From assembly GCF_902168435.1 (NCBI RefSeq), contig NZ_LR656167.1, positions 186,001-250,000 of the forward strand: 64,000 nt of DNA, in the 5' to 3' direction. Positions within the stretch are counted from its first letter, which is position 1. The number at the start of each line of letters is the position of its first letter. Made by a program: the position numbers and the translations under genes. The notes below the pieces were generated by a model. The model did not search any database and was not told the origin of the DNA. It saw only the letters and a list, made by a program, of their open reading frames with translations. Source of the stretch: Bacillus marasmi. Its GTDB lineage: Bacteria > Bacillota > Bacilli > Bacillales > Cytobacillaceae. Positions 32,281 through 62,101 of this stretch are shown here, piece after piece.

Positions 32281-32580
32281 GGTTGGATTGTAAAATCACT
32301 CCTTTCTAACCAGAAACCAAAGTGATAAAAATCACCTTATCTGAATTATTCAACAAGGGAAATCCCCTAATCGATTTGAGTAGTCTAACTAAATCGTATT
32401 CAATTGTGTCGAAAATATGCATGACGTTTGACAATCCTGTGAAATGAACTTGCGATTTATTGCGGCTGCTCTTGAATCCGTGATATATTTTAGACGTGAA
32501 GTTGATCACAAGCAAACATATACCCCTTTGTTTGACCGTGAAAAATTTCTCCCATCCCCTTTGTTCGTAAAATAACAGAA

Positions 32581-32615
32581 AAAACCTTGCAGCCCAAGAC
32601 TGCAAGGTTTTTTCT
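32581..32615. terminator. Terminator after spxH
   Basis: AAAACCTTGCAG and CTGCAAGGTTTT form a perfect 12-base stem around CCCAAGA, with T-tails on both strands. It ends the minus-strand spxH-globin unit. The stretch 32281-32580 holds no recognisable gene. Confidence 0.9.
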
Positions 32616-50013: not shown

Positions 50014-50085
50014 GATTTGGTAGCTCAGCGGGAGAGCACCACGTTGACAGCGTGGGGGTCGTGGGTTCAATCCCCACCCAGATCA
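50014..50085 (+). tRNA. tRNA-Val, anticodon GAC
   Basis: Complete cloverleaf: acceptor GATTTGG/CCAGATC (one G-U), D arm GCTC/GAGC, anticodon arm CCACG/CGTGG with loop TTGACAG (anticodon GAC, reading GUC/GUU), T arm GTGGG/CCCAC with TTCAATC, and discriminator A. The 3' CCA is not encoded (TCA follows). It stands at the border between the conserved block and the AT-rich accessory region. Confidence 0.95.
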
Positions 50086-50105: not shown

Positions 50106-50141
50106 AAAGACACATTTCATTAATTTGGAATGTGTCTTTTA
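50106..50141 (+). terminator. Terminator after tRNA-Val
   Basis: AAAGACACATTTC (50107 on) pairs with GAATGTGTCTTTT with a small mismatch. From here to 50421 no gene is seen; a degraded GCGCG hairpin fragment lies near 50153. Confidence 0.8.
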
Positions 50142-50421
50142 TTGTATAAAATGCGCGTTTCCATTATTCGTGTTTACCTCTTCGTCCATCCTGTTAATTC
50201 GAAGGGGGAGTGCTTTAATGGTTACATATTTTGAGAGGTAACCCATTTAGAAATATTTTTCAAATAGGCTTAAAAAGTTCGATCACTGTGGATTACAATT
50301 ATTCATAAAAAGAAAATTAGACGTTACCAAACGAATGGCTAAGAATATTCGATTAACGGGCACAAAGTTCAAATAGTTAGGAACGTCTCACTTATCTAAT
50401 AAACATTTAAGATGATGTAGT

Positions 50422-50447
50422 AAAAGGGAAGCCGCATTAGGCTTCCC
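50422..50447 (-). terminator. Terminator of the minus-strand gene at 50454
   Basis: GGGAAGCC and GGCTTCCC form a perfect stem around six bases; TTTT follows on the minus strand. Confidence 0.85.
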
Positions 50448-50453
50448 CTCATA

Positions 50454-50903
50454 TTATTCAGCACCTTTTAATAGTCCTAATTCAACCAAGTCTTTTCCCA
50501 TCTTATCGATACTGTTTGTTGTTTTCCATTTTTGTGTAGTATTATCAAACGTCAAAACATATAACTTATCGCTGCCACTAAGTTTTTTCTCAAATACATA
50601 ACCCTTTTTCTTTTCTTCGTTAATATAAAACAACGGAGCAAAATCACCAATAATTTGTTCGTCATGGATATCCATAAAAATTTTAGATAAAGACTTTTGT
50701 TGAACTGTTAAATCTCTCTTATTCCAATCAATTTCTCTTATATGTAATAAATTAAAACCGTCTAAATTGATTTTATGCGTATCAATAAAGTCATTAGTAA
50801 TGGTTTTAATAATTAATTCCTCAGTTAATTTTGCACTAACATTTGTTAAATAAGCTGTAAATGAAATTAATACCACCATAAATAATATTATTAGTCTTTT
50901 CAT
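50454..50903 (-). CDS. Secreted protein of unknown function
   Basis: Not recognised. The 149 residues start with a signal peptide (MKRLIILFMVVLISFTAYLT, probable cut after NVSA) and continue as a soluble domain with several aromatic residues and the end MGKDLVELGLLKG. I use the ATG at 50903 because GAGGTG lies nine bases upstream; the GTG at 50915 is inside that site. It is the first gene of the accessory region and one of few on the minus strand. It has its own terminator. Confidence 0.75.
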   Translation of the reverse strand: MKRLIILFMVVLISFTAYLTNVSAKLTEELIIKTITNDFIDTHKINLDGFNLLHIREIDWNKRDLTVQQKSLSKIFMDIHDEQIIGDFAPLFYINEEKKKGYVFEKKLSGSDKLYVLTFDNTTQKWKTTNSIDKMGKDLVELGLLKGAE

Positions 50904-51025
50904 ATCCCTATACACCTCAGTTGTTTTTCTTTTAGTTTTCCAATAACCATAACATATATTACAGTGATTTCTAATTTACATAACGTGGTCTTTTCTTCAA
51001 TATGGTAAGACTTTTATCTTCATGA

Positions 51026-51100
51026 AAAGGGCGCATTTCCATAGCATAGATCTGCGTTTTTTTGTATGTAAGGGCGCATTTTCTGAGAAGGAGCTGCACT
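51026..51100 (+). repeat. Two GGGCGC hairpin elements in tandem
   Basis: The first copy (51026-51064) has GGGCGCATTTCCATAGC, the arm TGCG and seven T. The second (51069-51100) has GGGCGCATTTTCTGAGAAGG and lacks a T-run. The rest of 50904-51325 is AT-rich and holds no gene. Confidence 0.75.
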
Positions 51101-51325
51101 CAATTTCCAGATTGCGAAGCAAACCTTTTAAAAGAAAATGGTATATCTATGTTAAAGTTAGCACTTAAACCGATGCAACTTAACATAATATGAAGAAATT
51201 ACCTAAAATGTACTAATTATGAAATTAATGATGTTAAACTTGTGCTATGTTTAATTAAGTAAAGCTGACAAAATCTATTGTAATTAGCATATCGATACAC
51301 TTCGAATAAAGGGAGCTAGCCCATA

Positions 51326-51985
51326 TTGATAAAAAATAAAAAATTTTTGTATCTTGCCATTATATTTTTCTTAGCGTCTATAACATTAAATGTACCTTTC
51401 CCACATAAAACGCTTTATGGTGCAACAGTTTATTTGTTTAACATACCTATTAAAACATTAAACGGACTCAATTATGTGGGGATTACTTCATTACTTTTAC
51501 TGATTCTTAGTCTATATTTTCTAGTAATATCATTAAATAAATATCATGCCCGATTTGTAGTGATTACTATAATCGTAGCGATGTTTCTCCCTTCATTCGT
51601 AGTGAGTTTGTATCAAAAAACCTTTGCAACTGGTATTTACTCGATTTCTTATGATGATAGTGGAAGTCATTGTAGTTTTCAAATGAAAAATGAGACAACA
51701 TTACATGGAAAGTGCGAACTACCTCTAAAAAATAATAGTAGAAATGATGTCCAATTTACCGTTGAATTTTATGAACCGTACCAGTCTGAAAATGATATTC
51801 CAATGGTTTCGCTAATGAATAAAAATACCTCTTATAACGTAATGCTCAGAGGAAAAGAGAGTAAACGCGTGAAATTTGAGACGAATATTGATGTATCGAA
51901 GATGAAAGAACACATCAATAGTGGAGAAATAACAGGTGGTGTGAATGTGATCATTAAGTCGGGGGCAAAAAGCAGAAAATTATGA
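51326..51985 (+). CDS. Membrane protein with an extracytoplasmic C-terminal domain, unknown
   Basis: Not recognised. The 219 residues contain three hydrophobic segments (about 6-24, 50-69 and 76-96) and then a polar 120-residue domain with two Cys (in GSHCSF and HGKCEL, near 115 and 128) that could form a disulfide outside the cell. The domain reads like a beta-sandwich (alternating hydrophobic strands, e.g. DVQFTVEFYEPY). The TTG start follows AAAGGGAG by ten bases. It stands alone between two GGGCGC hairpins. Confidence 0.7.
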   Translation: MIKNKKFLYLAIIFFLASITLNVPFPHKTLYGATVYLFNIPIKTLNGLNYVGITSLLLLILSLYFLVISLNKYHARFVVITIIVAMFLPSFVVSLYQKTFATGIYSISYDDSGSHCSFQMKNETTLHGKCELPLKNNSRNDVQFTVEFYEPYQSENDIPMVSLMNKNTSYNVMLRGKESKRVKFETNIDVSKMKEHINSGEITGGVNVIIKSGAKSRKL

Positions 51986-52011
51986 GTTGGTGTGGAAATC
52001 TTATTAAACTA

Positions 52012-52056
52012 AAGGGCGCATTTCTCAAGCAAGAGATGTGACATTTTATAATTATT
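52012..52056 (+). repeat. GGGCGC hairpin element
   Basis: GGGCGCATTTCTC, loop AAGCAA, GAGATGTGAC and an ATTTTAT tail. The arms pair only partly (CGCA with TGTG; CTC with GAG), so this copy looks degraded. Confidence 0.65.
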
Positions 52057-52183
52057 GCGAAACATTTAAAGGGCTTGACGGTCAAAAGCAGACTCCTGCC
52101 CAAGGGTTAGGTATTACGGATAAGATATTCAAAATTGAGGATATTTTATATTTAAGGTAATAATTGCAGACAATAACGTCTAA

Positions 52184-52756
52184 GTGTTTTACCAGAATAA
52201 AATCAAGGACGTGGTAATTATCAAGATATTTAAAATCTTCTTTTGGTGTATTGTTTTTACCTTCTCAATTTCTTATGCAGCTAAAGCTAACTACACAAGC
52301 GAAGAATTCCAAAAATCGCTTTTTGACATTGGTTTTAAGGAAGTTAATACAGCAATACAAGAAAGTAAAGGCCACTTTAAAAAGGATATTGCATTGCCAG
52401 TACAAATCCCTCCAATCGAATTTACGCACAGTTTCGGAAGGCTTAGTGATTTGGATGGTGACATAAACGATGGATTTGAAATTGAATACCGACATATCAA
52501 TAAACCGAAAAACCACTATATGATTTGGGTCAAACCAGTAAAATATGGTTTACCCATTAGGAAGGAACATATTGACCAAACCTTAAAACTAAAAGATGGA
52601 AGCAAAGCGATTTATAGTACCAAAATAGCAAGAGGATTTAATCTATTGGTATTCGAAAAAAGTGGTTGGCAGTATGTTCTAAACATTAATAAAACTGTTT
52701 CAGACCAAGTAACGCCAGAAATTTTAGTAGAGATAGCAAACTCAGTAAGTCCATAA
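52184..52756 (+). CDS. Secreted protein of unknown function
   Basis: Not recognised. An N-terminal hydrophobic segment (KIFKIFFWCIVFTFSISYA, about 14-32) followed by AKA suggests secretion; the mature part has about 155 residues with no Cys. The start is uncertain: the GTG at 52184 lacks a ribosome site, while AAGGA (52205-52209) would fit a start at GTG 52211 or ATT 52217 just before the signal peptide. It ends in ILVEIANSVSP, recalling proteins of the DUF4367 or LolA-like type, but I cannot place it. A terminator follows. Confidence 0.65.
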   Translation: MFYQNKIKDVVIIKIFKIFFWCIVFTFSISYAAKANYTSEEFQKSLFDIGFKEVNTAIQESKGHFKKDIALPVQIPPIEFTHSFGRLSDLDGDINDGFEIEYRHINKPKNHYMIWVKPVKYGLPIRKEHIDQTLKLKDGSKAIYSTKIARGFNLLVFEKSGWQYVLNINKTVSDQVTPEILVEIANSVSP

Positions 52757-52768
52757 TAAGTACCCATA

Positions 52769-52804
52769 AAAAAGCATCGGTCATTACAACCGATGCTTTT
52801 CTTG
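52769..52804 (+). terminator. Terminator after the gene at 52184
   Basis: AAAAGCATCGGT and ACCGATGCTTTT form a perfect 12-base stem around CATTACA (A/T flanks on both sides). Confidence 0.9.
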
Positions 52805-52917
52805 TGCTATTTCTAATGTTAATTTAACTGCTAAGTGGGCAGTTTTTTATCGAGAGAAATTTAGTTTTCCCTCCCATAACGGAACCCCTTAAATAAAAAC
52901 TAATGTGTTATTACATT

Positions 52918-52956
52918 AAAGGGCGCGAATCTCACACATGAGATGCGTCCTTTTTT
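52918..52956 (+). repeat. GGGCGC hairpin element / terminator
   Basis: GGGCGCGAATCTCA and TGAGATGCGTCC pair around CACA, followed by six T. The outer GGGCGC is kept while the inner arm (AATCTCA/TGAGAT) differs from other copies but still pairs. Confidence 0.85.
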
Positions 52957-53028
52957 GGTTAAGGATTATATGGTTGAAAATAATAATGGATATTTATGGT
53001 AATATATATTTAAGGATGGTGAAAAATC

Positions 53029-53211
53029 ATGAAGAAAAATTATACAGTGTTCTTTTTATTTTTGTTTAGTGCATCTATTGCTGGCGGTATGGCACTTAAA
53101 AATATTCTCGAATATTCAATGATTATTGGTGTGGGATTAGCATCAGTCTTTCTATTAGCTGCTGCGTTTTCACTTGGGAAAAAGAACCGGGATAATAGAA
53201 TACATAAATAA
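53029..53211 (+). CDS. Small two-helix membrane protein, unknown
   Basis: Not recognised. The 60 residues have two hydrophobic helices (about 6-22 and 29-49) and a basic tail KKNRDNRIHK, so both ends should face the cytoplasm. AAGGATGGTG precedes the ATG at a normal distance. It is a single gene placed between two GGGCGC hairpins. No Pfam-type motif is visible. Confidence 0.7.
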   Translation: MKKNYTVFFLFLFSASIAGGMALKNILEYSMIIGVGLASVFLLAAAFSLGKKNRDNRIHK

Positions 53212-53233
53212 ATGTTTTAAGTTATTCAATTAT

Positions 53234-53271
53234 CGGGCGCAATTTCTCAGATAAGGGATGTGCTTATTTTT
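53234..53271 (+). repeat. GGGCGC hairpin element
   Basis: TATCGGGCGCAATTTCTCAG, then GGGATGTGC and a TTATTTTTG tail. Pairing in the inner arm is imperfect. Confidence 0.7.
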
Positions 53272-53361
53272 GTTATGGACCAGATTGTTAAGAAAGCATG
53301 TGGATTAATAATTTAGTTTTTTCAAATGCTATGTTAAACATTTATTCTTGGATTTAATAAT

Positions 53362-53396
53362 AAAAGGACTTCGATAATATGAAGTCCTTTTTTAAA
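53362..53396. terminator. Terminator before the minus-strand gene at 53392
   Basis: AAAAGGACTTC and GAAGTCCTTTT form a perfect 11-base stem around GATAATAT, with A and T runs for both strands. Confidence 0.9.
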
Positions 53397-53580
53397 TTAA
53401 GATAAATGTTCCAAAAGCAACAAGAAAAATTCCTAATCCAAACTCAATATTACTTCTTACTCGGATGACACCTTTTTCTTTATAATCCTTTTGGTTCATT
53501 TTGAGTAAGGAGGAATAGAGCGCAATGATTCCCAATAAAATAATCAATACACCTATCAATATTGCCAATATATCCACCAA
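53392..53580 (-). CDS. Small two-helix membrane protein, unknown
   Basis: Not recognised. Up to 62 residues with two hydrophobic helices (about 3-25 and 45-62) joined by a basic loop (MNQKDYKEKGVIRVRSN). The start is uncertain: TTG 53580 and the following GTG lie very close to AAAAGG, and an internal TTG is possible. Its end overlaps the hairpin at 53362-53396. It has no sequence likeness that I can see to the other two-helix protein at 53029. The opposite strand to its neighbours makes it a separate unit. Confidence 0.6.
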   Translation of the reverse strand: MVDILAILIGVLIILLGIIALYSSLLKMNQKDYKEKGVIRVRSNIEFGLGIFLVAFGTFILI

Positions 53581-53681
53581 ACCTTTTATATATTTGAATT
53601 AGTTTTTCTTCAAATGGTAAATTCTGATAATCTTAGTCTATCATATGTGTCATTGGTTTACATAGAATCAATAACGCTCTT

Positions 53682-53735
53682 CAGCAATCGGGCGCGTATC
53701 CATAGCTGAGGACAAGCGCCCATTTTACGTTTTGG
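53682..53735 (+). repeat. GGGCGC hairpin element, long form
   Basis: The core GGGCGCGTATCC, loop ATAGCTGA, GGACAAGCGCCC starts at 53690 and is followed by ATTTTACGTTTTGG. TTCAGCAATC directly before it and GCCATAT after it are also found at other copies (60875-60883; 54920 onward). Confidence 0.88.
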
Positions 53736-53825
53736 TGCCATATTGCTAAAAAAGGTTATTTTATTTATTTGTGATAATATATTTTATGTAATGTAATAAT
53801 TTGGAAAGTGTATAGGAGGTTGATT

Positions 53826-54161
53826 ATGAAAAGAAAGTCATTGTTTGTCTTTGGTGCTATAGGAGTTCTCGCACTATCAATTGGATTTATGAAAGACTTG
53901 AAAAGTACAGAGATATTGGCAAAAGAACAACCAGTATCAGAAAGTGTATTTATAGGACAAGCAGATATTGATAATGGGGACCAACTAAGAGTTGTAACAG
54001 TAGAAGAACAAGAAATGCGAGAAAATAATCCTATTGAAGATAGGGATCAAACCTTAGTTATAACAGCAGAAGAACAAAATATGGTAGAGAACTCAACGGC
54101 TTTATCAGGATTTGTGTCGCAAGAAAATGGACCAGGCTTCTTTTTTGAGAAGGTAAAATAA
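53826..54161 (+). CDS. Exported protein with an internal repeat, unknown
   Basis: Not recognised. The 111 residues begin with a membrane/signal segment (KSLFVFGAIGVLALSIGFM). The mature part holds a tandem duplication: LRVVTVEEQEMRENNPIEDR and TLVITAEEQNMVENSTA align with (V/A)EEQ(E/N)M.EN in common. ATG 53826 is five bases after AGGAGGT; the upstream start at 53808 is inferior. Acidic and without Cys. It is flanked on both sides by long-form hairpin elements. Confidence 0.7.
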   Translation: MKRKSLFVFGAIGVLALSIGFMKDLKSTEILAKEQPVSESVFIGQADIDNGDQLRVVTVEEQEMRENNPIEDRDQTLVITAEEQNMVENSTALSGFVSQENGPGFFFEKVK

Positions 54162-54186
54162 ACTTAAATATAGTTATTAAACAAAC

Positions 54187-54230
54187 GGGCGCGTATCCAT
54201 AGCAAGGATAAGCGTCCTTTTTCTTTTTGG
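54187..54230 (+). repeat. GGGCGC hairpin element, long form
   Basis: GGGCGCGTATCC, loop ATAGCAA, GGATAAGCGTCC, then TTTTTCTTTTTGG. GGGCGC opposite GCGTCC has one G-U pair. Confidence 0.88.
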
Positions 54231-54312
54231 CAAGATTGTGGAGTAACTTTGATTACTGAAAGCCTCAAACTTGTGTGTTAAGATACGGAATAAACGAATT
54301 GGAGGGGTCAGA

Positions 54313-54861
54313 TTGTTCATACATAAAATAAACGACGACTTATCCTTAAAATTAATAGAATTAAAGGATAGCGAAAGGGTATTTGAATTAACAGATAAGT
54401 CTAGGGCTCATTTAAGGGAATGGTTGCCTTGGTTAGACATTACTACAAAACTCGAAGATACCACTGGGTTTATCAAAGGGTGTTTAAAAGGATTTGATGA
54501 AAATAAGAGCTTAAATTCAGTTATTTTATTTAAAGGAGAGATTGTTGGTGTTGCAGGCTACAATAGCATTAATTGGTCAAATAAGACCGCATATATTGGT
54601 TATTGGCTTGGTGAAGAATTTCAAGGAAATGGGATAATGACATTGGTGGCAAAAGCATTAACTGATTATGCTTTTGTTGGATTGGGTTTAAATAAAGTTG
54701 AAATTAGGGCCGCTGTTGGCAATAAGAAAAGTAGAAGTATTCCTGAGAGATTGAACTTTGTAAATGAAGGATGTATTAGACATGCTGAGTGGTTATATGA
54801 CCACTATGTAGACCATGTTGTATATGGGGTTTTGGCGGAAGAATGGAATAAAATTGATTGA
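54313..54861 (+). CDS. RimL/YdaF-like GNAT N-acetyltransferase
   Basis: A 182-residue acetyltransferase of the ribosomal-protein-serine/alanine (RimJ/RimL) type. The order matches the family: N-terminal MFIHKINDDLSLKLIELKD, the GYWLGEEFQGNGIM acetyl-CoA loop (about 98-111, Q/RxxGxG with QGNG) and the AAVGNKKSRSIPERLNF block (about 136-152) that is nearly diagnostic. TTG 54313 stands five bases after GGAGGGG; the start at 54271 adds an unlikely extension. It closely resembles B. subtilis YdaF in plan. Target unknown. It is the only clear enzyme in the array. Confidence 0.88.
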   Translation: MFIHKINDDLSLKLIELKDSERVFELTDKSRAHLREWLPWLDITTKLEDTTGFIKGCLKGFDENKSLNSVILFKGEIVGVAGYNSINWSNKTAYIGYWLGEEFQGNGIMTLVAKALTDYAFVGLGLNKVEIRAAVGNKKSRSIPERLNFVNEGCIRHAEWLYDHYVDHVVYGVLAEEWNKID

Positions 54862-54876
54862 GTTTCTTCAGCTATA

Positions 54877-54930
54877 GGGCGCGTATCCATAGCAAGGATA
54901 AGCGCCCTTTACATTTTGGGGCCATATAAT
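54877..54930 (+). repeat. GGGCGC hairpin element, best-matched copy
   Basis: GGGCGCGTATCC, loop ATAGCAA, GGATAAGCGCCC: all paired except the G/A bulge facing. TTTACATTTTGGGGCCATAT follows, matching the copy at 53690. Confidence 0.9.
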
Positions 54931-55072
54931 TGCAGAACACTTTTAAAGAAAATTGGATATATATGTTAGGATATAGTTAAGGTTGTGAAGTATTACACTT
55001 CAACTAAAGAACTGTTTAGCAGAAAACTAGTATTAAGGATTTGTCGTAATAGTGTAATGAAAGGGTGTATTG

Positions 55073-55633
55073 ATGAAATTCTTATTTTCGATATTATTCG
55101 TACTTATTTTAATCATTTCAGGTTGTAGCAACGTAGATGACGAAATAAAAACAGAACAAAAAACAATAGAACAAGCATCTTTAGAAAGTGATATCCCATC
55201 AGCAAATATTTTTTATACGGAGGAAATAGGCACTCAAGAAGCGTTCTCCCTTTTTCAATCTCCAAATGGGTGTGGGGTTATGAACTTTTCTAAAAGTAAG
55301 AATGGATGGGTTTATCAAGGTTACTCATCTTTTCAATATGATATAGAAGATATTTCATCTTTTACTTTAAGTCAGTCATCCTGGCATAAAGGGGAAATCT
55401 CTCTAAATAAAGAAAGTTATTATTCAACGGTTTTTTTAGGCGAAATAATTGACCCAGAGATTGATAAAATTATTGTTGAATATGACAATATGAATGGAGA
55501 GGCAAATATTGTAGAAAATAATGGGAGAAGGTTTTGGTATCTTTTATCTGAGCCAGATAAGGGTTATGATTCAGTAAATACGATTTCTGCTTACTCTTCT
55601 GATGGAAAATTACTTTATATAGAAGAAGGTTGA
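55073..55633 (+). CDS. Lipoprotein of unknown function
   Basis: Not recognised. A signal peptide with lipobox ISGC (about 16-19) starts a 186-residue protein. The mature part contains one further Cys (in PNGCGVMNF), many Ser/Tyr residues and strand-like alternation, e.g. NKESYYSTVFLGEI, suggesting a small beta-domain on the outer face of the membrane. ATG 55073 follows AAAGGGTG; the TTG at 55070 is one codon earlier. It is a single gene between hairpin elements. Confidence 0.75.
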   Translation: MKFLFSILFVLILIISGCSNVDDEIKTEQKTIEQASLESDIPSANIFYTEEIGTQEAFSLFQSPNGCGVMNFSKSKNGWVYQGYSSFQYDIEDISSFTLSQSSWHKGEISLNKESYYSTVFLGEIIDPEIDKIIVEYDNMNGEANIVENNGRRFWYLLSEPDKGYDSVNTISAYSSDGKLLYIEEG

Positions 55634-55670
55634 TTTAGTAACACTAGGGGGCTAGAAACAAATAAGTATG

Positions 55671-55730
55671 AGCACCTTTGTCTTCCGTAAACGGGTGCTT
55701 TGCTTCAACTGGATGCAAGGCATTTTTTTC
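55671..55730 (+). terminator. Terminator region after the lipoprotein gene
   Basis: AGCACC pairs with GGTGCT, and GCTTTGC pairs with GCAAGGC (one G-U) before a run of seven T at about 55724. The two hairpins share bases and are alternatives. Confidence 0.55.
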
Positions 55731-55838
55731 TGATCATAAAACAGGGGTAACTTATTTAACACAATGGGACTTGTACAAGTCTATTAAAAAAATTACAAGA
55801 ATTAACAAAAAATGTCTACTAATCGGGATTAATGGACA

Positions 55839-56057
55839 CTAGTTATCGTTAAATTCTACCTCACTAATATCTACCTCTTTAATGATAACATCTTTATTCG
55901 GATCTGGATCATAGTCTAAAAGAAGAAATAAAAGCAGTATTAAGATAAGGATAAGAGCAGTGAAAATTATCTCCTTAGTATTTTTTTTCGAATCTTTATC
56001 TTGTTGTTGCTTTCTATAATTCGACTGAATTTTTTTTGTGTTATAATCTTGTTTCAT
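55839..56057 (-). CDS. Small single-pass membrane protein, unknown
   Basis: Not recognised. The 72 residues show a Gln/Lys-rich hydrophilic N-terminus (about 1-28), one long helix of Ile/Leu (ALILILILLLFLLL, about 34-47) and an acidic C-terminal tail (DYDPDPNKD onward), so the tail should be outside. AGGTGGG precedes the minus-strand ATG by six bases. The gap 56058-56237 upstream holds nothing else that I can identify. Confidence 0.65.
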   Translation of the reverse strand: MKQDYNTKKIQSNYRKQQQDKDSKKNTKEIIFTALILILILLLFLLLDYDPDPNKDVIIKEVDISEVEFNDN

Positions 56058-56237
56058 AATAATCCCACCTAAAGATATATACAGATTAGTAAGTATTTCT
56101 CCATTTGATATAACAAACCCTTTAAGGACAAAAAATTTTCAATAAATGCATTAACAGAACATAACGTCAAAAATATCAAGGAAGTATTAGCACAATAAAG
56201 AAATATTCTTTCTTTTATATTAAGATTTCCCACAATC

Positions 56238-56272
56238 GGGCGCTATCCTGTAGGGATCAGCGCTTATTTTCA
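56238..56272 (+). repeat. GGGCGC hairpin element
   Basis: AATCGGGCGCTATCC, loop TGTA, GGGATCAGCGCTT and ATTTTC. A variant with a shorter loop. Confidence 0.8.
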
Positions 56273-56347
56273 ATATGGATGATTTAACAAAACAACACCT
56301 GCTAATGAGAAAGAGATCCTTATATAAAGGTTTAGGGGGATTGAGAT

Positions 56348-56417
56348 ATGGCTTTCTGGTATATGCTTTTTATTAATACTTCCATTTGCTACTGTAGTAT
56401 CAGCAACGGATGATTAA
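56348..56417 (+). pseudogene. Possible remnant of a small secreted-protein gene
   Basis: TTAGGGGGATTGAGAT is a ribosome-site-like lead to ATG 56348, giving MAFWYM. A frame change would join it to LILPFATVVSATDD (56373-56417), which reads like the end of a signal peptide. The evidence is weak. Nothing else is seen in 56273-56537. Confidence 0.25.
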
Positions 56418-56537
56418 GGAAAAAGGACGACTGCTTGTGAAGTGTGCTACTTTATGTAGTGAAAGCTAAAATACTTCCAGCTTTCTCTTGAAATATTAAT
56501 TAGTATTTATTACCATGATGATGCGGAGGTATGTAAA

Positions 56538-56984
56538 ATGAAAAAAGTACTTGTAACTGGTTTTGCTTCTGTGGTCATTGCGACTGCTTGGTTTGGAACC
56601 GGTGGAAAGAATAGCGAAGCACTTGAATCTAACAACGTTAAGAACAATAAAGTGGTTGTTTTCACAGCACTAGATGAAAATCTTAAAGACAATGGAACGA
56701 TTTCAGATGGAATCCATAATACTTCTATGATCCTGAATGATTCACTTGAACACGCTTCAAGTTTTTCGGAAATAAAAGGAATTGAAAATATCGAAATATA
56801 TATGAACGGAGTTATTGAACTTGCTGAGGAACGAAATGCTGCACAATTAATTAAAGATAGACTAAATCAGTCTAATCAGCTAATTCAGCAAGCTATTTCG
56901 GAGCAAGACATTAACAAGCTTCATCAGGCTGACAAGATCTTATTAGATCTTGATCTGGAGTTTAATGAAGGAGTATCACTATAA
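56538..56984 (+). CDS. Exported helical protein, unknown
   Basis: Not recognised. The 148 residues start with a short hydrophobic segment (VLVTGFASVVIATAWFG) that may be a signal peptide or anchor. The mature part has low aromatic content and heptad-like helices rich in Asn, Gln, Ile and Leu (NQLIQQAISEQDINKLHQAD), suggesting a small helical bundle. GCGGAGGT precedes the ATG. It is followed after 28 bp by a GGGCGC-type element. Confidence 0.7.
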   Translation: MKKVLVTGFASVVIATAWFGTGGKNSEALESNNVKNNKVVVFTALDENLKDNGTISDGIHNTSMILNDSLEHASSFSEIKGIENIEIYMNGVIELAEERNAAQLIKDRLNQSNQLIQQAISEQDINKLHQADKILLDLDLEFNEGVSL

Positions 56985-57011
56985 AAATATAAAGTAGTAA
57001 ATTCCGCGATT

Positions 57012-57062
57012 GGGCGCGAAAATTCAACAACTTGGACTGTTTTTTGAGCAGTCCATTTTTCT
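57012..57062 (+). repeat. GGGCGC element, second subtype, with terminator
   Basis: GGGCGCGAAAATTCAACAAC is followed by TTGGACTGTTTTTTGAGCAGTCC: GGACTG (57034-57039) and CAGTCC form the stem and ATTTTTC follows. The same GCGCGAAAAT(G)CAACAAC head recurs at 60421 and 61880. Confidence 0.85.
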
Positions 57063-57174
57063 TCGCCATTAGCCAGGTATAGGGCAGGTTTGTGAAAGAA
57101 AGGTTAAAAGAAAAATTTAACCAAGTTCAAAAGGTAAATGGTAAAATTAAGAAAAAAAGAAGTTTGGTGAGAAA

Positions 57175-57422
57175 ATGTTTTATTGGAAATTAAGAATTCC
57201 ACTTTTATTGGTTGTTATGGGATTTGCATCAGGCATGTTACAAAAATTCCCTAATCTCTTTCAAGTAACGCGTCTAATTTCATAAGAAGTGCTATGTTTA
57301 TAGGTTTAATCGGTATCATTCTTTTTGTTTTAGAAAGATCAAAGGAATGAAAAAAAGGTTCATTTTTTTTTGGTGTTGGGTTAATCTTATTTGCTGTCAC
57401 CTTTGACTTCATAATGGTATAG
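57175..57422 (+). pseudogene. Frameshifted small membrane-protein gene
   Basis: Three pieces in different frames join into one plausible product of about 82 residues with three hydrophobic helices. Piece one: ATG 57175, MFYWKLRIPLLLVVMGFASG, to a TAA at 57283. Piece two: SAMFIGLIGIILFVLERSKE to a TGA at 57348. Piece three: KKGSFFFGVGLILFAVTFDF to a TAG at 57420. Shifts fall near TAATTTCATAAG (about 57276-57287) and the A-run at 57350-57356. A weak TTGGTGAG ribosome site precedes. Either a decayed gene or sequence errors. Confidence 0.6.
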
Positions 57423-57639
57423 TTTTTCTTCTTAGAAGCATATTGGATTATTGGTGAAGATGGTTGGTCTCAGCAAATGTTTAAGAATATTTGATCAATC
57501 TAATTAGATGTTAGACTAAATTCATTTATTAGTGAAAATGGGAAATACAGACTGTTATTTAACGAACAGAAACTATTCAGTATTAAGTTTTTTGTTATTT
57601 TGAAAAATAATACTTCATTACATGGGGAGTAAATTTAAT

Positions 57640-58989
57640 ATGATTGCTCAATATAGGATTGAACCAGACGATGCTCTAGCTTTCCGTCGAGATGCTGAAA
57701 AGACTTCCATTAGAATATACATAATAAATTTGCTTATGCCTTGGGTTTTTACCGCAGCTTTTTTTCTATACTTTTTCTTTAAAATTAGAACTATTCCAGA
57801 TGTCTACTTTGATGAATTATTTCCAACGTATTCCAAATGGTTTTTTCTAGTCTTTCATTCATGCATCATATTCTTTATTGTCTTCCCCCTACTTAAACAA
57901 GTAACCAATTATCTTGCTGAAAAAATCATGATAAAAAAATTAGAGTGGTCTTCTTATTTTGGAGAGCGCAAATTGTTTATAGATGATTCCGGTATCACAA
58001 TAGAGCAGTCAAATGCAACGAAAACATATAAATGGAAAAATATAGTGAGAGTTAGTGAAGATGACCTTCGTTATTACGTTTATATAACCGATATTAAAGC
58101 ATTTATTATAAAAAAGAACTATTCCTCTTTATCTGAAGCGGACCAAGAAGAACTTGGTCATATACTAAGAAGATATACAGTTCATTTATCGACCAGTAAA
58201 ATGAAAGCACAAAAGAAATTCAGTATATCATTAAAGACTAAAACGATCCTACTGTTTCTATATTTATTGACAATCGGCTTTTCAAAACTAGATTGGGGAA
58301 TTACTCTCAATGAAGCGTCAAAAGAGGTCAATTCATTGTTTGAACTTACAGATGACCCGAAGGCTTTTAAAACTATAAAAGACAGTCTCAGCCAAGAGGA
58401 AATTAATTATGCAAGACAGGCGGTATATCATATTTATGATATTGGAATCTTTGATACAGAAAAAGATATGGAACGCACTCGATTATACGAACTTATTCAT
58501 AGGGCACAAAATCAACTAAACGAAAAACTTGGTATTCCAACCGAGCCAAAAAGTCTTGTTTATGGCGGTGAAAGCAAAACATGGAAAATTACTGATTATA
58601 AAATTGAAGCCACCGTATGGGAATTTCAGGCTCACTCTGTCCCAATTATTATGAAAGAACAAACCAAGTATCTAGCAAACTATTTTAAAGTGAAAGCATA
58701 TATAGATTTTGATGAAGAATTATTCGAAAATCATATGTTATATGAATTTGAACTGACACCTGAAAAGCCAAAGAATTTTGGAGAGGATTTAATTGTCACC
58801 GAAGGGGAACTTAATATTGCCAAGCATACAACCCCCTATTATTCCTCGCCAAAATTGGTAAACAAATATGGAGAACCAGCAACTTTAAAAGACATCGAGA
58901 AAGTCTATTTCATCATTGAATGGGTAGGTCAACAAGATTTGGAAAAGAAAAAGGAAATAGTGATTTTACACCAAATAGATAATACATAA
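57640..58989 (+). CDS. YcxB-like membrane protein fused to a large unknown domain
   Basis: The largest gene of the accessory region (449 residues). Two N-terminal helices (about 24-48 and 70-92) precede a domain with WSSYFGERKLFIDDSGI and KTYKWKNIVRVSEDDLRYYVYI, the layout of YcxB-like/PH-related membrane proteins. A third helix (about 205-220, TILLFLYLLTIGFS) is followed by about 230 residues of soluble sequence that I cannot place. GGGGAG stands ten bases before ATG 57640. Usual YcxB-type proteins end near residue 190, so this looks like a two-part protein. Confidence 0.75.
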   Translation: MIAQYRIEPDDALAFRRDAEKTSIRIYIINLLMPWVFTAAFFLYFFFKIRTIPDVYFDELFPTYSKWFFLVFHSCIIFFIVFPLLKQVTNYLAEKIMIKKLEWSSYFGERKLFIDDSGITIEQSNATKTYKWKNIVRVSEDDLRYYVYITDIKAFIIKKNYSSLSEADQEELGHILRRYTVHLSTSKMKAQKKFSISLKTKTILLFLYLLTIGFSKLDWGITLNEASKEVNSLFELTDDPKAFKTIKDSLSQEEINYARQAVYHIYDIGIFDTEKDMERTRLYELIHRAQNQLNEKLGIPTEPKSLVYGGESKTWKITDYKIEATVWEFQAHSVPIIMKEQTKYLANYFKVKAYIDFDEELFENHMLYEFELTPEKPKNFGEDLIVTEGELNIAKHTTPYYSSPKLVNKYGEPATLKDIEKVYFIIEWVGQQDLEKKKEIVILHQIDNT

Positions 58990-59069
58990 CAGGACGATTG
59001 CCAAATATGGTGGTCGCATTTCCATATTCAGTCGAAAAAAGCAAATTGATAAGTCTTTATTCCATTAAA

Positions 59070-59104
59070 GGGCGCGTTTCGCTAAGAAATGCGTCTATTT
59101 TCAT
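59070..59104 (+). repeat. GGGCGC hairpin element
   Basis: AAAGGGCGCGTTTC, loop GCTAA, GAAATGCGTCT and ATTTTC. The inner arm GTTTC/GAAAT is different from other copies but still pairs. Confidence 0.85.
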
Positions 59105-59225
59105 TCAATGCTCATTTCTTATGAAGTAGTGCTGCTCATTTTGAAATTAAGTTTCGTATTGTTAAATAAGGGTGTGCTTTTTGGAGAAACTACTATCAAA
59201 ATTCCGTTAGAATTGAGGGACTAAA

Positions 59226-59708
59226 GTGGGTTATCATATTAGATTTATCATTGTACTACTTCTTCTGGTTAGTAACCCTATAATCATTTCAGCTAAAGAA
59301 ATTAAGTATAATCACAACAGCATTACGATTCCAGAAATAAAGAAAAGTGTTGATTTTACCGTTTTGACTCCACAAAAAATTCCTGATGATTGGACATTAG
59401 ATACCAAATTAGATCCTTGGGTAATGCTGCATTATATGGATAACAAAGATAGGAAATTGATGGTTGCTATTCATTTAAGAAAGGGTTCTCAAATATCAGA
59501 TGGAGATTTTCCTAATGCTCAGAAGGTTGACGTTAATGGTAACAGGGGCTATTTTTCAAGATGGGCAGATAGTGATGAAATAGATAAATATGGAGACACC
59601 ATTACCGGAGGCATACTTAATTGGGTTGAAGATGGTACTCACATAGAAATGAGTAGTTCAATTATTCCAAAAGGAAAAATGTTGGAAATCGCAAGATCAA
59701 TGAAATAA
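59226..59708 (+). CDS. Secreted DUF4367-like protein
   Basis: A 160-residue exported protein. A signal peptide (FIIVLLLLVSNPIIISA, about 7-23) precedes a domain with ADWTL-type start (PDDWTLDTKL), a Gly-rich turn (VDVNGNRGYFSRW) and the ending MSSSIIPKGKMLEIARSM, which strongly recalls the C-terminus of DUF4367 proteins. Such domains often sit outside the membrane near anti-sigma factors or as single secreted proteins. The GTG start follows GAGGGAC. No partner gene is adjacent. Confidence 0.7.
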   Translation: MGYHIRFIIVLLLLVSNPIIISAKEIKYNHNSITIPEIKKSVDFTVLTPQKIPDDWTLDTKLDPWVMLHYMDNKDRKLMVAIHLRKGSQISDGDFPNAQKVDVNGNRGYFSRWADSDEIDKYGDTITGGILNWVEDGTHIEMSSSIIPKGKMLEIARSMK

Positions 59709-59755
59709 ATTTATTTAATGAGGCGAATGAAAAAATTATCAACCTTATTTACTGA

Positions 59756-59791
59756 AGAAAGGGCACAATTCTAAAGAATTGTGCTCTTTCT
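59756..59791 (+). repeat. Hairpin element, GGGCAC variant
   Basis: GAAAGGGCACAATTC and GAATTGTGCTCTTTC pair around TAAA with one G-U: GCAC replaces GCGC on one side and GTGC matches it on the other, a compensatory change against other copies. Confidence 0.88.
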
Positions 59792-59864
59792 ATTTTGGTG
59801 AAATTATCAAGTAAGGTGAAAAGGTGTGTTTTTACCAAAATTTTCATAAATTAAATAAACAAAA

Positions 59865-60040
59865 ATGAATGAAAGGTGTAAAATTACTCTATCTACTATT
59901 ATGGCGTAACGAAAAATGGGAAAAAGGTAAAACAGTTCTGTGAGGTAGATCCGTTGCCAGTATTAGAAGATGGAACTATTCTCGATATAACGACAAAACA
60001 CCAAAAAAAAAATTGTGCTAACTCATATGATAATAGGTAA
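59865..60040 (+). pseudogene. Frameshifted coding remnant
   Basis: ATG 59865 (MNERCKITLSTIMA, TAA) and an overlapping second frame (NYSIYYYGVTKNGKKVKQFC and onward, ending NCANSYDNR at 60040) look like two parts of one broken gene. The second frame has no start codon. A run of ten A near 60003-60012 is a further weak point. Product unknown. Confidence 0.4.
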
Positions 60041-60058
60041 CATTGGGGGGGCTATATT

Positions 60059-60394
60059 ATGTCTAAGAAAATTATTATCCTAGTTTCAATAATCTCTTTG
60101 GTAATTATTGGTTTCCTTATTAATTGCTATCCTGTTCAAAGAAGCATGGCTGATAAGGCTGTTCAACAATACATGGATAAACAAGGGATTTCCAAAGATA
60201 ATATTGTTGGCAAAAACATAATGAAGGATTATAAACAGGGTGGGTATGAGATAGACATTGTATTAAAAGATGATCCAGGCCTTGTATATTCTTATTTTTG
60301 GAGAAAAGAAAATGGAGTTGTATTGCTTGTATTTATTAATGGTACTGCAGGTATTGATGAGGGAATGAAGTATCCTCCTTTAGAAAACCATTAA
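60059..60394 (+). CDS. DUF3139-like exported/membrane protein
   Basis: A 111-residue protein with an N-terminal hydrophobic anchor (IIILVSIISLVIIGFLI) and a small alpha/beta domain. YMDKQGISKDNIVGK followed by GYEIDIVLKDDPGLVYSYFW agrees with the DUF3139 family of Bacillus, which is common in multi-copy small-gene clusters. TTGGGGGGG precedes the ATG. Function unknown. It stands as a single gene, with a second-subtype element 27 bp behind. Confidence 0.72.
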   Translation: MSKKIIILVSIISLVIIGFLINCYPVQRSMADKAVQQYMDKQGISKDNIVGKNIMKDYKQGGYEIDIVLKDDPGLVYSYFWRKENGVVLLVFINGTAGIDEGMKYPPLENH

Positions 60395-60416
60395 TAAATA
60401 ATGATGGAAATTCCAA

Positions 60417-60450
60417 AATCAGGCACGAAAATGCAACAACTTGGACTGTC
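60417..60450 (+). repeat. GGGCGC element, second subtype (incomplete)
   Basis: ATCAGGCACGAAAATGCAAC and AACTTGGACTGTC match the elements at 57012 and 61880, but the closing CAGTCC arm and T-run are missing. Confidence 0.75.
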
Positions 60451-60502
60451 AGTAGAAGACCATCATATGATTTTATGTTGAAGAGCAGTTTGGGGGGAGA
60501 CA

Positions 60503-60802
60503 ATGAGAGTAATTTTAGAGCTAATACGTATTGTTTTTATATTTCTGCTTCTAGGTGGACTTGCAGGGTTAGCAATAGAAAATATCTATACAATAAACGA
60601 TGTTACTGAGAGGTATCAGTGGATTGGAGCACTTGGAATCTATGTTTCACTCTTTGTATTGTATAGGAATAAGTTCCAATTTTCAGGTTGGTATAAGGGG
60701 AAAGGACGTAAAAGGCTATCCAAAGCTGCAACAATTAATTTATTGAGTTGTTCAATTTTTATGCTGACATTACCCATTATATTAGGATTAATAATAAACT
60801 GA
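60503..60802 (+). CDS. Three-helix membrane protein, unknown
   Basis: Not recognised. The 99 residues hold three hydrophobic helices (about 5-25, 41-55 and 76-98) and a basic cytoplasmic loop (YKGKGRKRLSKA, about 64-75), a common plan for small Bacillus membrane proteins. GGGGGGAG precedes the ATG. It is one gene between two elements of different subtype. Confidence 0.72.
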   Translation: MRVILELIRIVFIFLLLGGLAGLAIENIYTINDVTERYQWIGALGIYVSLFVLYRNKFQFSGWYKGKGRKRLSKAATINLLSCSIFMLTLPIILGLIIN

Positions 60803-60875
60803 CTAAAAGAATATTGTAACTAAATGGTATTTTAGCTAACGGTGGAGTAAGTATAGAGTTAATATTTTAGATATT

Positions 60876-60918
60876 CAGCAATCGGGCGCAATTATCGAGA
60901 GATGATTGCGCCATTTCA
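60876..60918 (+). repeat. GGGCGC hairpin element
   Basis: TTCAGCAATC is followed by GGGCGCAATTATC, loop GAGA, GATGATTGCGCC and ATTTC. GGCGCAAT pairs with ATTGCGCC perfectly; the inner arm again differs from other copies. Confidence 0.9.
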
Positions 60919-61170
60919 TGTTTGGTCAGAAGGTGAAATAACAATTTTTTGTAGTATCTTCCCTAGTTAAAGAAAAATTTATCAATAAATCAACAAGAAG
61001 ATGGCGGAATGAAGACAGAAATCTCGTTGAATCTATTAGTTTGGAGAACCTAATAATAATGAAATAGTCATACGTCAAATCTCCACAAATTCTAAAATAC
61101 TCTTTAAGGCGTGTTTGCCTTTTTATGTTACGATTAAATTGGAAAAATTTATAAAGGTGGTTTCGTTAAC

Positions 61171-61833
61171 ATGAAAAAAATACTTTTCATAATCGCCATA
61201 ATTGTCATTTTTGGAGGATTTGCAACAGGATGCAATTTAATTAAAGATGACAATGAACAAGAGAAAACCTTAACATCAAGTAACAAAACAACTAATAATG
61301 AAAAGGTTGTGGATGAAAAAGCGTGGAAGGACATTACTAAACTTAAAATTCCTGAAGGTGAAAAATCAGATTATCCTACTAATGCAAAAGATTGGATTGC
61401 TTCTGAAAATCTTATATTTAACGAAGAGCCTGTCCAAGATTCGAAATTAATTCAAGCTGGATTTGATAAGTACTATCATTATTATCTCGAAGCCATTACC
61501 ATACCATCAGATCTTGCAATAATAAAAGTCAAGGGGATTTCGATAGAAAAGGATTTTGCCAATATTGAACAACTTTCCAGCATTATTCAAGAAGAACACG
61601 ATAAACGTACTGAGCACATTGATCCGAATCGGTCTGATAAACGTGAAGCAAACGCCGAATGGAAAGCACCAAGCGAAAGACTCGTCAAAGCAAGTGACTT
61701 TTTAAAACAGTTGTTTTATGACCTTGATATTGCGATTAACAAAGACGGTAAAGGGGAACTATACGGAGTTGCACACCAGGTAGATGGACAAAATGTAGAT
61801 GAGTTAGAAGTTTTTATTCAAGATGAAGAATAG
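61171..61833 (+). CDS. Lipoprotein of unknown function
   Basis: Not recognised. Lipobox ATGC (Cys21) after a hydrophobic core, a linker rich in Thr/Ser/Asn/Lys, and a largely helical acidic domain of about 175 residues (220 in total) with YYHYYLEAIT and LVKASDFLKQLFYDLDIAINKDGKGE. It may be a surface-anchored helical protein. AAAGGTGG precedes the ATG by ten bases. No Cys besides the lipid site. Single gene; a second-subtype element follows 46 bp later. Confidence 0.75.
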   Translation: MKKILFIIAIIVIFGGFATGCNLIKDDNEQEKTLTSSNKTTNNEKVVDEKAWKDITKLKIPEGEKSDYPTNAKDWIASENLIFNEEPVQDSKLIQAGFDKYYHYYLEAITIPSDLAIIKVKGISIEKDFANIEQLSSIIQEEHDKRTEHIDPNRSDKREANAEWKAPSERLVKASDFLKQLFYDLDIAINKDGKGELYGVAHQVDGQNVDELEVFIQDEE

Positions 61834-61878
61834 TGCTCATTTAGGAACAATGCTTGAATTTTAGCCTAATAAAGTAAA

Positions 61879-61932
61879 TGGCGCGAAAATGCAACAACTA
61901 GGGCTGTTAATTTCAGCAGTCCATTCTTCCTC
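61879..61932 (+). repeat. GGGCGC element, second subtype, with terminator
   Basis: TGGCGCGAAAATGCAACAAC, then TAGGGCTGTTAATTTCAGCAGTCC. GGGCTG and CAGTCC pair with one G-U. Compare 57012. Confidence 0.85.
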
Positions 61933-62055
61933 CAATCTGTCCTAAAAGCAAAAAATATTTTATCGAATACCCAGAGGTACATTTGCTGAAGTAAATGGAG
62001 TGGAAAAACTGGGTTAGTATATTTATTTTTTCGTTTTGTACAATATTCCAGAAAC

Positions 62056-62101
62056 GGGCGCGTATCCAAAGCAAGGATAAGCGCTCATTTTACGTTTTGG
62101 G
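62056..62101 (+). repeat. GGGCGC hairpin element, long form (last copy)
   Basis: GGGCGCGTATCC, loop AAAGCAA, GGATAAGCGCTC and ATTTTACGTTTTGGGG. It is nearly identical to the copies at 53690, 54187 and 54877. Confidence 0.9.

Follow-up and report, generated by a model that had tools for sequence, protein, structure and literature searches.

The 64-kb window analysed here (the whole stretch from 186001 to 250000 of contig C21 in G000, a 4.64-Mb draft genome of Bacillus marasmi in 46 contigs) carries, directly after a tRNA-Val gene (50014-50085), an array of small gene units separated by a recurring element with the core GGGCGC. The best explanation, which we hold with considerable confidence from the comparison of sequences, is a polar array of gene cassettes served by a linked Xer-like recombinase. 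It is most likely an Xer-based, integron-like cassette system in a group, the Firmicutes, from which integrons are, to our knowledge, regarded as nearly absent. The sequences provide the array and its polarity, the boundaries of its units, one exact gain or loss, and a linked recombinase which has its catalytic residues.

The element and the units it bounds

Elements were called with a position-weight model covering the 16 bases before GGGCGC and 8 bases from it, trained on the arrays of five genomes of the genus and applied at a score of at least 13. At this threshold the 1.04 Mb around the arrays of the five genomes gave 307 matches and the reversed sequence 3; the window gave 14 sites between 50358 and 62056, all on the + strand, with none on its other strand and 1 in its reversed sequence. 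The recurring element described by an earlier, sequence-only reading of the window is therefore real, as is the recurrent left flank (TTCAGCAATC). Twelve of the 16 copies claimed at that time pass, three (51072, 60421 and 61879) are weak, and one (59761) fails with -11.0 though a hairpin is visible there; two further sites, 50358 (GGGCAC) and 55693 (GGGTGC), had not been listed. All copies were said to point the same way, and they do so even beside the opposite-strand open reading frames (ORFs) at 50454-50915, 53392-53580 and 55839-56057.

With the onset of the array the G+C content per 2 kb changes from 34-42% to 32-34%. Beyond the window the array reaches C21:296138 on the same strand, with gaps, for about 60 kb overall, and additional elements of this genome lie on contigs C11, C45 and C24. 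No integrase platform was seen by eye at that end of the array among the ORFs of at least 110 amino acids (aa) in C21:289000-308999. In the arrays of a second genome (G001:C1) most elements seem to be co-directed with presumed replication relative to a dif-like site at 2345603, the exceptions lying at 573-586 kb and 3762 kb.

Each unit starts with GGGCGC and a hairpin and ends with TTCMRCAATC, so that the hairpin is a 5' feature of the unit and not, as had been proposed, a structured 3' site of the preceding gene. The consensus of the 3' left arm is TATTCMRCAATC. The median length of 194 units in the five genomes is 898 bp, and 120 of them contain a single ORF by the counting rule used. Where direction could be scored (179 units), the largest ORF runs with the element in 148 and against it in 31; in 99 co-oriented single-ORF units the median distance is 164 bp from GGGCGC to the start of the ORF and 78 bp from its stop to the following GGGCGC.

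Judged by its sequence, the core site appears dif-like, with arm, 6-bp spacer and arm of about 12+6+12 bp. Inverted-repeat arm matches amount to 5.73 of 12 in GGGCGC sites (n=361; control 2.49) and 6.26 of 12 in GGGTGC sites (n=129; control 2.40), and a second control gave 5.39 versus 3.51. Folding was sampled in 150 of the 281 elements of the five genomes, the same set from which unit neighbours were counted. The inner 50 nt folds better than its shuffles (median z -2.25, against 0.07 at +200 to +250), with z below -2 in 53% of inner stretches and in 6% of those at +200 to +250. In many elements the inner hairpin is followed by a second inverted site, GGGCCA plus an arm, which a loose search found in 127 of the 281. 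Inner hairpins often precede T runs, and the copies termed D type have a separate terminator-like hairpin.

No Rfam family matched the element at gathering threshold in the window or in the loci L013, L048 and L050; the RF02004 and RF00029 matches in L048 and L050 were assigned to group II introns. By eye, the intron copies in G001 appear to begin right after GGGCGC and to continue with GTGCGACG. The elements concerned are at 573068, 575861, 580533 and 1206129 (L048, which is G001:C1:570001-590000, and L050), the introns are closely similar, and the L048 region also has a 2.8-kb tandem duplication at 571443-577028. Group II introns which target attC sites are known in integrons (PMC7923331).

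Comparison of junctions supports the view that the units behave as cassettes, with exact gain and loss at the site. With the window array as query against the five genomes, the stretch 56233-57018 was found as a 96% copy in G004, and 54164-54882 as a 96% copy on C11 of the same genome (C11:26043-26763). Each copy is followed by a different downstream unit, and both homologies stop at the GGGCGC of the next element. Fourteen element pairs share the upstream unit and have unrelated downstream units; their identity is 0.86-0.93 at -4 to -1 (random pairs 0.48-0.90) and about random from +7. In 41 pairs with a common downstream unit and unrelated upstream units, identity is high from 0 on and near random upstream. 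Because identity switches at the element, the left arm moves mostly with the preceding unit, and GGGCGC with its hairpin moves with the following one. Of 77 homology ends inside arrays, taken from matches of at least 200 bp and at least 80% identity, 26 have an element no more than 20 bp away on both sides, the expectation being about 3.3% per side.

The sequence-only reading had suggested a comparison of strains for exact gain or loss at the element, and this yielded one case. Three units, 2,938 bp in all (G000:C21:273675-276613), are missing from genome G002, in which TTTTAGTTATTCAATTAT, the left arm belonging to the left unit, continues directly into GGGCGCATTTCACTAAGAAATGCGTC, with which the right unit starts. 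The flanks, aligned over 1,850 and 852 bp, share 94% and 93% identity, and the insert ends, 6 and 0 bp from elements, were confirmed by reading the alignment. None of the 65 indel pairs listed carried the automatic three-way flag, and every other listed pair has at least one insert end more than 45 bp from any element. The cassette interpretation put forward at the outset is thus borne out by units which recur with changed neighbours and switch at the element, by this exact gain or loss, and by the recombinase described below.

A linked Xer-like recombinase

A search for a recombinase linked to the element had likewise been suggested, and of the tyrosine recombinases in related genomes one type, with a length of about 282 aa, was found near or inside arrays. 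Its G002 copy (P0001, 280 aa) scores 224.4 bits with the XerA model NF040815 (cut-off 220) and 100.1 bits with the integron integrase model TIGR02249, far under the cut-off of 265. Among solved structures, those closest in sequence belong to XerC-like, XerD and XerA proteins; the predicted model has its best fold matches in XerA, the ranks being indicative only (pLDDT 78.8, pTM 0.56, C-terminal end below 50). The catalytic residues R, K, H-x-x-R, H and Y (R138, K162, H229, R232, H255 and Y264) are each kept in 49-50 of 50 sequences.

A contig search with P0001 gave 57 recombinase loci, in genera which include Neobacillus, Peribacillus, Lysinibacillus, Ureibacillus, Ectobacillus, Sutcliffiella, Pontibacillus, Fictibacillus, Virgibacillus and Lentibacillus. 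In 33 of the 57 an element lies 121-219 bp upstream in the same orientation, and in 25 of these 33 the distance is 160-176 bp. All 57 loci together contain 299 elements (control 4), 260 on the strand of the recombinase and 39 on the other. In a subset of 42 loci, which leaves out 15 distant, partial or weaker ones, the recombinase-strand elements number 88 upstream and 102 downstream, and those on the other strand 6 and 3. Since same-strand elements stand on both sides, the recombinase gene itself reads as a cassette inside a polar array. Several copies are followed, by eye, by a conserved simple site without a hairpin, such as TTAAGCAATC-GGGCAG-GATTGTTGAATAAG in L153; close variants occur in L151 and L159, and the sequence beyond differs between loci. 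An automatic search for simple sites after the recombinase found them in 6 of the 42 loci. This downstream simple site may serve as a preferred entry site. A conserved gene pair (85-86 aa, and 134-135 aa, retropepsin-like by eye) follows the recombinase in L013:13440-14080, L141 and L143.

The element pattern TTCNNCAATCGGGCGC, with one mismatch allowed, occurs in 174 of the 193 genomes of the family with 1,399 matches in total, the reversed pattern giving 0-2 per strand and genome. Among the matches listed, a recombinase or remnant of at least 77% identity is present in 18 genomes, which have a median of 10.5 element matches against 3 in the 175 others. The largest number of element-pattern matches in the 193 genomes, 162, was found in G143, which has three close recombinase copies, two of them with internal stops.

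The sequence-only reading was right that the window contains no integrase; a linked recombinase nonetheless exists outside it, truncated in the same genome and uninterrupted in others. In G000 the first 119 codons only are present, at 92% identity, in C21:262045-262404, 12 kb past the window, preceded by an element at 261869. No intact close copy appears in G000 among the matches listed, the other three of the four matches scoring below the range listed. As the linked recombinase is truncated, the G000 array is probably immobile (frozen) or served in trans, comparable to a group of integron cassettes that lacks the integrase. One candidate agent, a tyrosine recombinase cluster on C11 (11.4-15.5 kb) that also adjoins an array in G002, was rejected: no comparable cluster is listed in G001, despite its large arrays. 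The 11.2-kb block with a tyrosine recombinase cluster beside an array (G000:C11:9539-20710 and G002:C1:4521749-4532909, 88% identity) is probably a separate mobile element. A further candidate agent was a 403-410-aa integrase, which is present in all four genomes searched.

Mechanism, rival explanations and related systems

A cassette consists of GGGCGC, often with a hairpin just inside, then one or a few genes, then the 3' left arm. At the joint between two cassettes, the dif-like core site is made up of the 3' arm of the first, the 6-bp spacer GGGCGC and the 5' arm of the second. We infer that the 280-aa Xer-like recombinase acts on these sites, most likely cutting at the edge of the spacer, and that it joins, removes or inserts cassettes through site-specific recombination between directly oriented sites, with a circular intermediate. 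The hairpin just inside the cassette probably also halts read-through from the preceding cassette.

A number of observations weigh against this interpretation, all of whose support is comparative. The profile of the 14 common-upstream pairs falls to 0.64 at -6 and -5; the 41 common-downstream pairs show an excess at -2 and -1 (0.68 versus 0.48-0.49); element pairs are not independent, and the 41-pair set still contains the G001 group II introns. Fifty-one of the 77 homology ends are not near an element on both sides, and the G002 junction is one base short (C at -1), the site there scoring sub-threshold. Among the 57 recombinase loci, 24 have no scored element within 400 bp upstream and just 28 have an uninterrupted frame of at least 800 bp. 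Elements oppose the recombinase in L174 (1 same, 10 opposite) and L186 (1, 12), two of the 15 loci outside the 42-locus subset, which together supply 22 of the 39 opposite-strand elements and have more distant recombinases (65% and 60%). The Mann-Whitney p of 1.8e-7 for the association of recombinase and element ignores phylogeny. At least 10 element matches are also found in 25 of the 175 genomes without a close recombinase relative, and G001 has 51, yet its recombinase matches are merely at Xer level (best E 1.5e-37); the link between recombinase and element is therefore not strict. Finally, the left and right arms lack covariation (z 0.7 in 137 elements, those of 590 in which the right site is clear), as do the proximal arms (z 0.3 over 278 distinct pairs). 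Arm covariation had seemed to be visible by eye in several elements, and the count over the 137 refuted it.

The missing covariation is what would be expected if the arms derive from different units and are read by protein, and it gives no sign that the arms must pair in single-stranded DNA. It bears on an integron-like single-strand mechanism, in which the substrate would be the folded bottom strand of a long element with two inverted sites around the hairpin. The second inverted sites found by the loose search and the strong inner folding fit such a mechanism, which we consider possible though doubtful: the left and far right arms do not covary, hairpin-less simple sites adjoin some recombinase genes by eye, and the proximal arms are in themselves enough for a symmetric double-strand site. 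A different agent, host XerC/XerD, could move the units as with Acinetobacter pdif modules, the linked gene being merely a passenger. The linked gene, however, retains its catalytic residues, stands at a narrow distance behind an element (160-176 bp) in 25 of the 57 loci, and is accompanied by more elements in the genomes that have it. Site type and position also vary between two recombinase clades, though not strictly, and the GGGCGC spacer is unlike the AT-rich centre of dif. Host XerC/XerD is an unlikely agent, although the dif-like layout of the sites, the large arrays of G001 without a close relative of the linked recombinase, and the CTTCC which the G001 dif-like site CTTCCTATAATAGATATTATGTAAAC has in common with some left arms speak for it.

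The sequence-only reading had kept open a terminator family spread by recombination. In this alternative, intrinsic terminators would have been dispersed through ordinary homologous recombination, the junctions being there as shared intergenic sequence. Stable inner hairpins, often followed by T runs, and the separate hairpin of the D type suit terminators. A terminator is oriented with the gene upstream of it, whereas here the element keeps its orientation in the 31 of 179 units whose largest ORF runs against it. The conserved part is arm plus spacer, the hairpin moves with the downstream gene, and the common sequence of about 20 bp at the junctions is short for homologous recombination. With exact junctions, an orientation that stays constant past reversed genes, and a linked recombinase, terminators alone are a highly improbable explanation.

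A cassette array with a linked Xer-like recombinase has several features of integrons and of clusters of attC sites lacking integron-integrases (CALINs): polar arrays of small, mostly single-gene, poorly recognisable units with exact boundaries, a recombinase of the tyrosine family, and arrays that are large and chromosomal or that have no integrase. As in an integron, the sites stand in one orientation (14 of 14 in the window, 190 versus 9 around the 42 recombinases, 260 versus 39 over the 57). Group II introns occur at sites in both, here in G001 and in integrons according to PMC7923331. In contrast to integrons, the recombinase is XerA-like and not of IntI type; it is one of the cassettes of the array, flanked by elements, and not fixed outside next to attI. 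The hairpin opens the unit at its 5' end, and the core is symmetric with a 6-bp spacer, mostly GGGCGC. The system thus lacks two marks of an integron, IntI and a fixed platform. IntegronFinder 2.0 found one complete integron in Firmicutes, that of Limnochorda pilosa, plus a few CALINs (PMC9024848).

The Xer dimer recombinases XerA, XerC and XerD share with the linked recombinase the protein family, the fold and the arm-6-arm layout of the site; unlike theirs, its gene is patchy in distribution, multi-copy in some genomes, often broken, and tied to arrays and not to a single dif. In a pdif module the bounding dif-like sites are in inverted orientation, whereas almost all sites here stand in direct orientation; the arrays also differ in their GC-rich spacer, which hardly varies, and in the dedicated recombinase that accompanies many of them. 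The likeness to the XerCD-dependent pdif modules of Acinetobacter is that dif-like sites bound gene modules which form arrays (PMC12907356).

Spread of the system and features of the window array

The exact sequence TTCMRCAATCGGGCGC is present in 3 of 398 genomes across the phylum, namely in 3 of the 7 of the window's order and in none of the 391 others; as far as sampled, the GGGCGC site type is for this reason confined to that order. When 57 recombinase rows were ranked by identity to P0001, 34 were at 73% or above, and 25 of these have an element 90-260 bp upstream, with spacer GGGCGC in 19, GGGTGC in 5 and GGGAGC in 1 (six genomic loci occur twice). None of the 23 rows at 71% or below has an element at 90-260 bp upstream. 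Among the 20 loci L121-L140 are 10 in which the stop codon is followed, at a distance of about 56 bp, by a GGGTGC, GGGGGC or AGGGGC element in opposite orientation. The match of spacer to recombinase clade is a loose one.

On a Peribacillus plasmid (L199) a homologue of the 60-aa window gene lies between AGGTGC and GGGTGC elements, and on plasmid L200 another is flanked by two sites, GGGGGC and a reversed GGGTGC, which score 11.8 and 14.9. Two of the four plasmids examined, L198 and L201, have no element beside the matched window-gene homologue. Because the plasmid homologues of the 60-aa gene sit between elements other than GGGCGC, cargo appears to be shared between site types, and likewise between chromosomes and plasmids. 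On balance we favour the view that this is a second, independently evolved cassette-capture system which combines an XerA-like recombinase with dif-like sites, has spread through Bacillaceae and their kin, and is movable as a cassette between arrays. It would have at least two site types (GGGCGC; GGGTGC/GGGGGC), loosely matched to two recombinase clades, and cargo apparently shared between chromosomes and plasmids. No description of such a system was found among the matches listed in the open-access literature, as titles and the starts of abstracts, most subscription papers and preprints lying outside that scope.

If this is true, many small unknown genes of Bacillaceae could be explained as mobile cargo with definable boundaries, and new cargo could be discovered by reading between sites. 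The system would also offer a clean model of a chromosome-dimer recombinase turning into a gene-capture system and, with the recombinase as a cassette, could move as a whole between arrays.

The part of the array which lies within the window is set out in Table 1.

Table 1. Element core sites and ORFs of the array, in window positions
Feature	Position	Strand	Score or evidence
Element core site, spacer GGGCAC at 50358, first scored after tRNA-Val	50346..50375	+	16.4
ORF opposite to elements	50454-50915	-	ORF list
Element core site, spacer GGGCGC at 51029	51017..51046	+	23.3
Weak second copy, GGGCGC at 51072, 43 bp beyond the 51029 copy	51060..51089	+	8.1, sub-threshold
Cargo ORF of unit 51029-52014, 219 aa, membrane protein by eye	51326..51985	+	ORF; no Pfam match
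Element core site, GGGCGC at 52014	52002..52031	+	25.4
Cargo ORF, 190 aa, secreted-like by eye	52184..52756	+	ORF; no Pfam match
Element core site, GGGCGC at 52921	52909..52938	+	24.8
Cargo ORF, 60 aa, small membrane protein by eye; homologue on Peribacillus plasmid L199	53029..53211	+	ORF, plasmid match
Element core site, GGGCGC at 53235	53223..53252	+	30.6
Cargo ORF, 62 aa, opposite to elements	53392..53580	-	ORF
Element core site, GGGCGC at 53690, then long hairpin	53678..53707	+	32.5; fold
Cargo ORF, 117 aa, internal 60-nt repeat spaced 66 nt	53808..54161	+	ORF, repeat D8; no Pfam match
Element core site, GGGCGC at 54187	54175..54204	+	30.3
Cargo ORF, GNAT acetyltransferase, 196 aa; unit recurs at 96% on C11 with another unit downstream	54271..54861	+	PF13302; homology
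Element core site, GGGCGC at 54877	54865..54894	+	28.3
Cargo ORF, 187 aa, lipoprotein by eye	55070..55633	+	ORF; no Pfam match
Element core site, spacer GGGTGC at 55693	55681..55710	+	23.9
Cargo ORF, 72 aa, opposite to elements	55839..56057	-	ORF
Element core site, GGGCGC at 56238	56226..56255	+	24.4
Cargo ORF, 148 aa, within stretch 56233-57018, which recurs in G004	56538..56984	+	homology search
Element core site, D type with separate terminator-like hairpin, GGGCGC at 57012	57000..57029	+	20.9; fold
Cargo ORF, YcxB-like membrane protein, 455 aa	57622..58989	+	PF14317
Element core site, GGGCGC at 59070	59058..59087	+	28.7
Cargo ORF, DUF4367, 160 aa	59226..59708	+	PF14285
Cargo ORF, DUF3139, 111 aa	60059..60394	+	PF11337
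Weak element, AGGCAC at 60421	60409..60438	+	10.6, sub-threshold; repeat D7
Cargo ORF, 99 aa	60503..60802	+	ORF
Element core site, GGGCGC at 60884	60872..60901	+	33.1
Cargo ORF, 220 aa, lipoprotein by eye; 81% copy at C21:273642-274605, same genome	61171..61833	+	ORF, homology
Weak element, TGGCGC at 61879	61867..61896	+	9.9, sub-threshold
Element core site, GGGCGC at 62056; array continues to C21:296138	62044..62073	+	30.4

Tandem repeats of about 52 bp which start with GGGCAC occur elsewhere in the same genome (G000:C16:258682-259611 and G000:C30:8780-9145) and are apparently unrelated to the element family. Outside the array, positions 32496-32614 of the window correspond to the small RNA RsaE/RoxS (Rfam RF01820).

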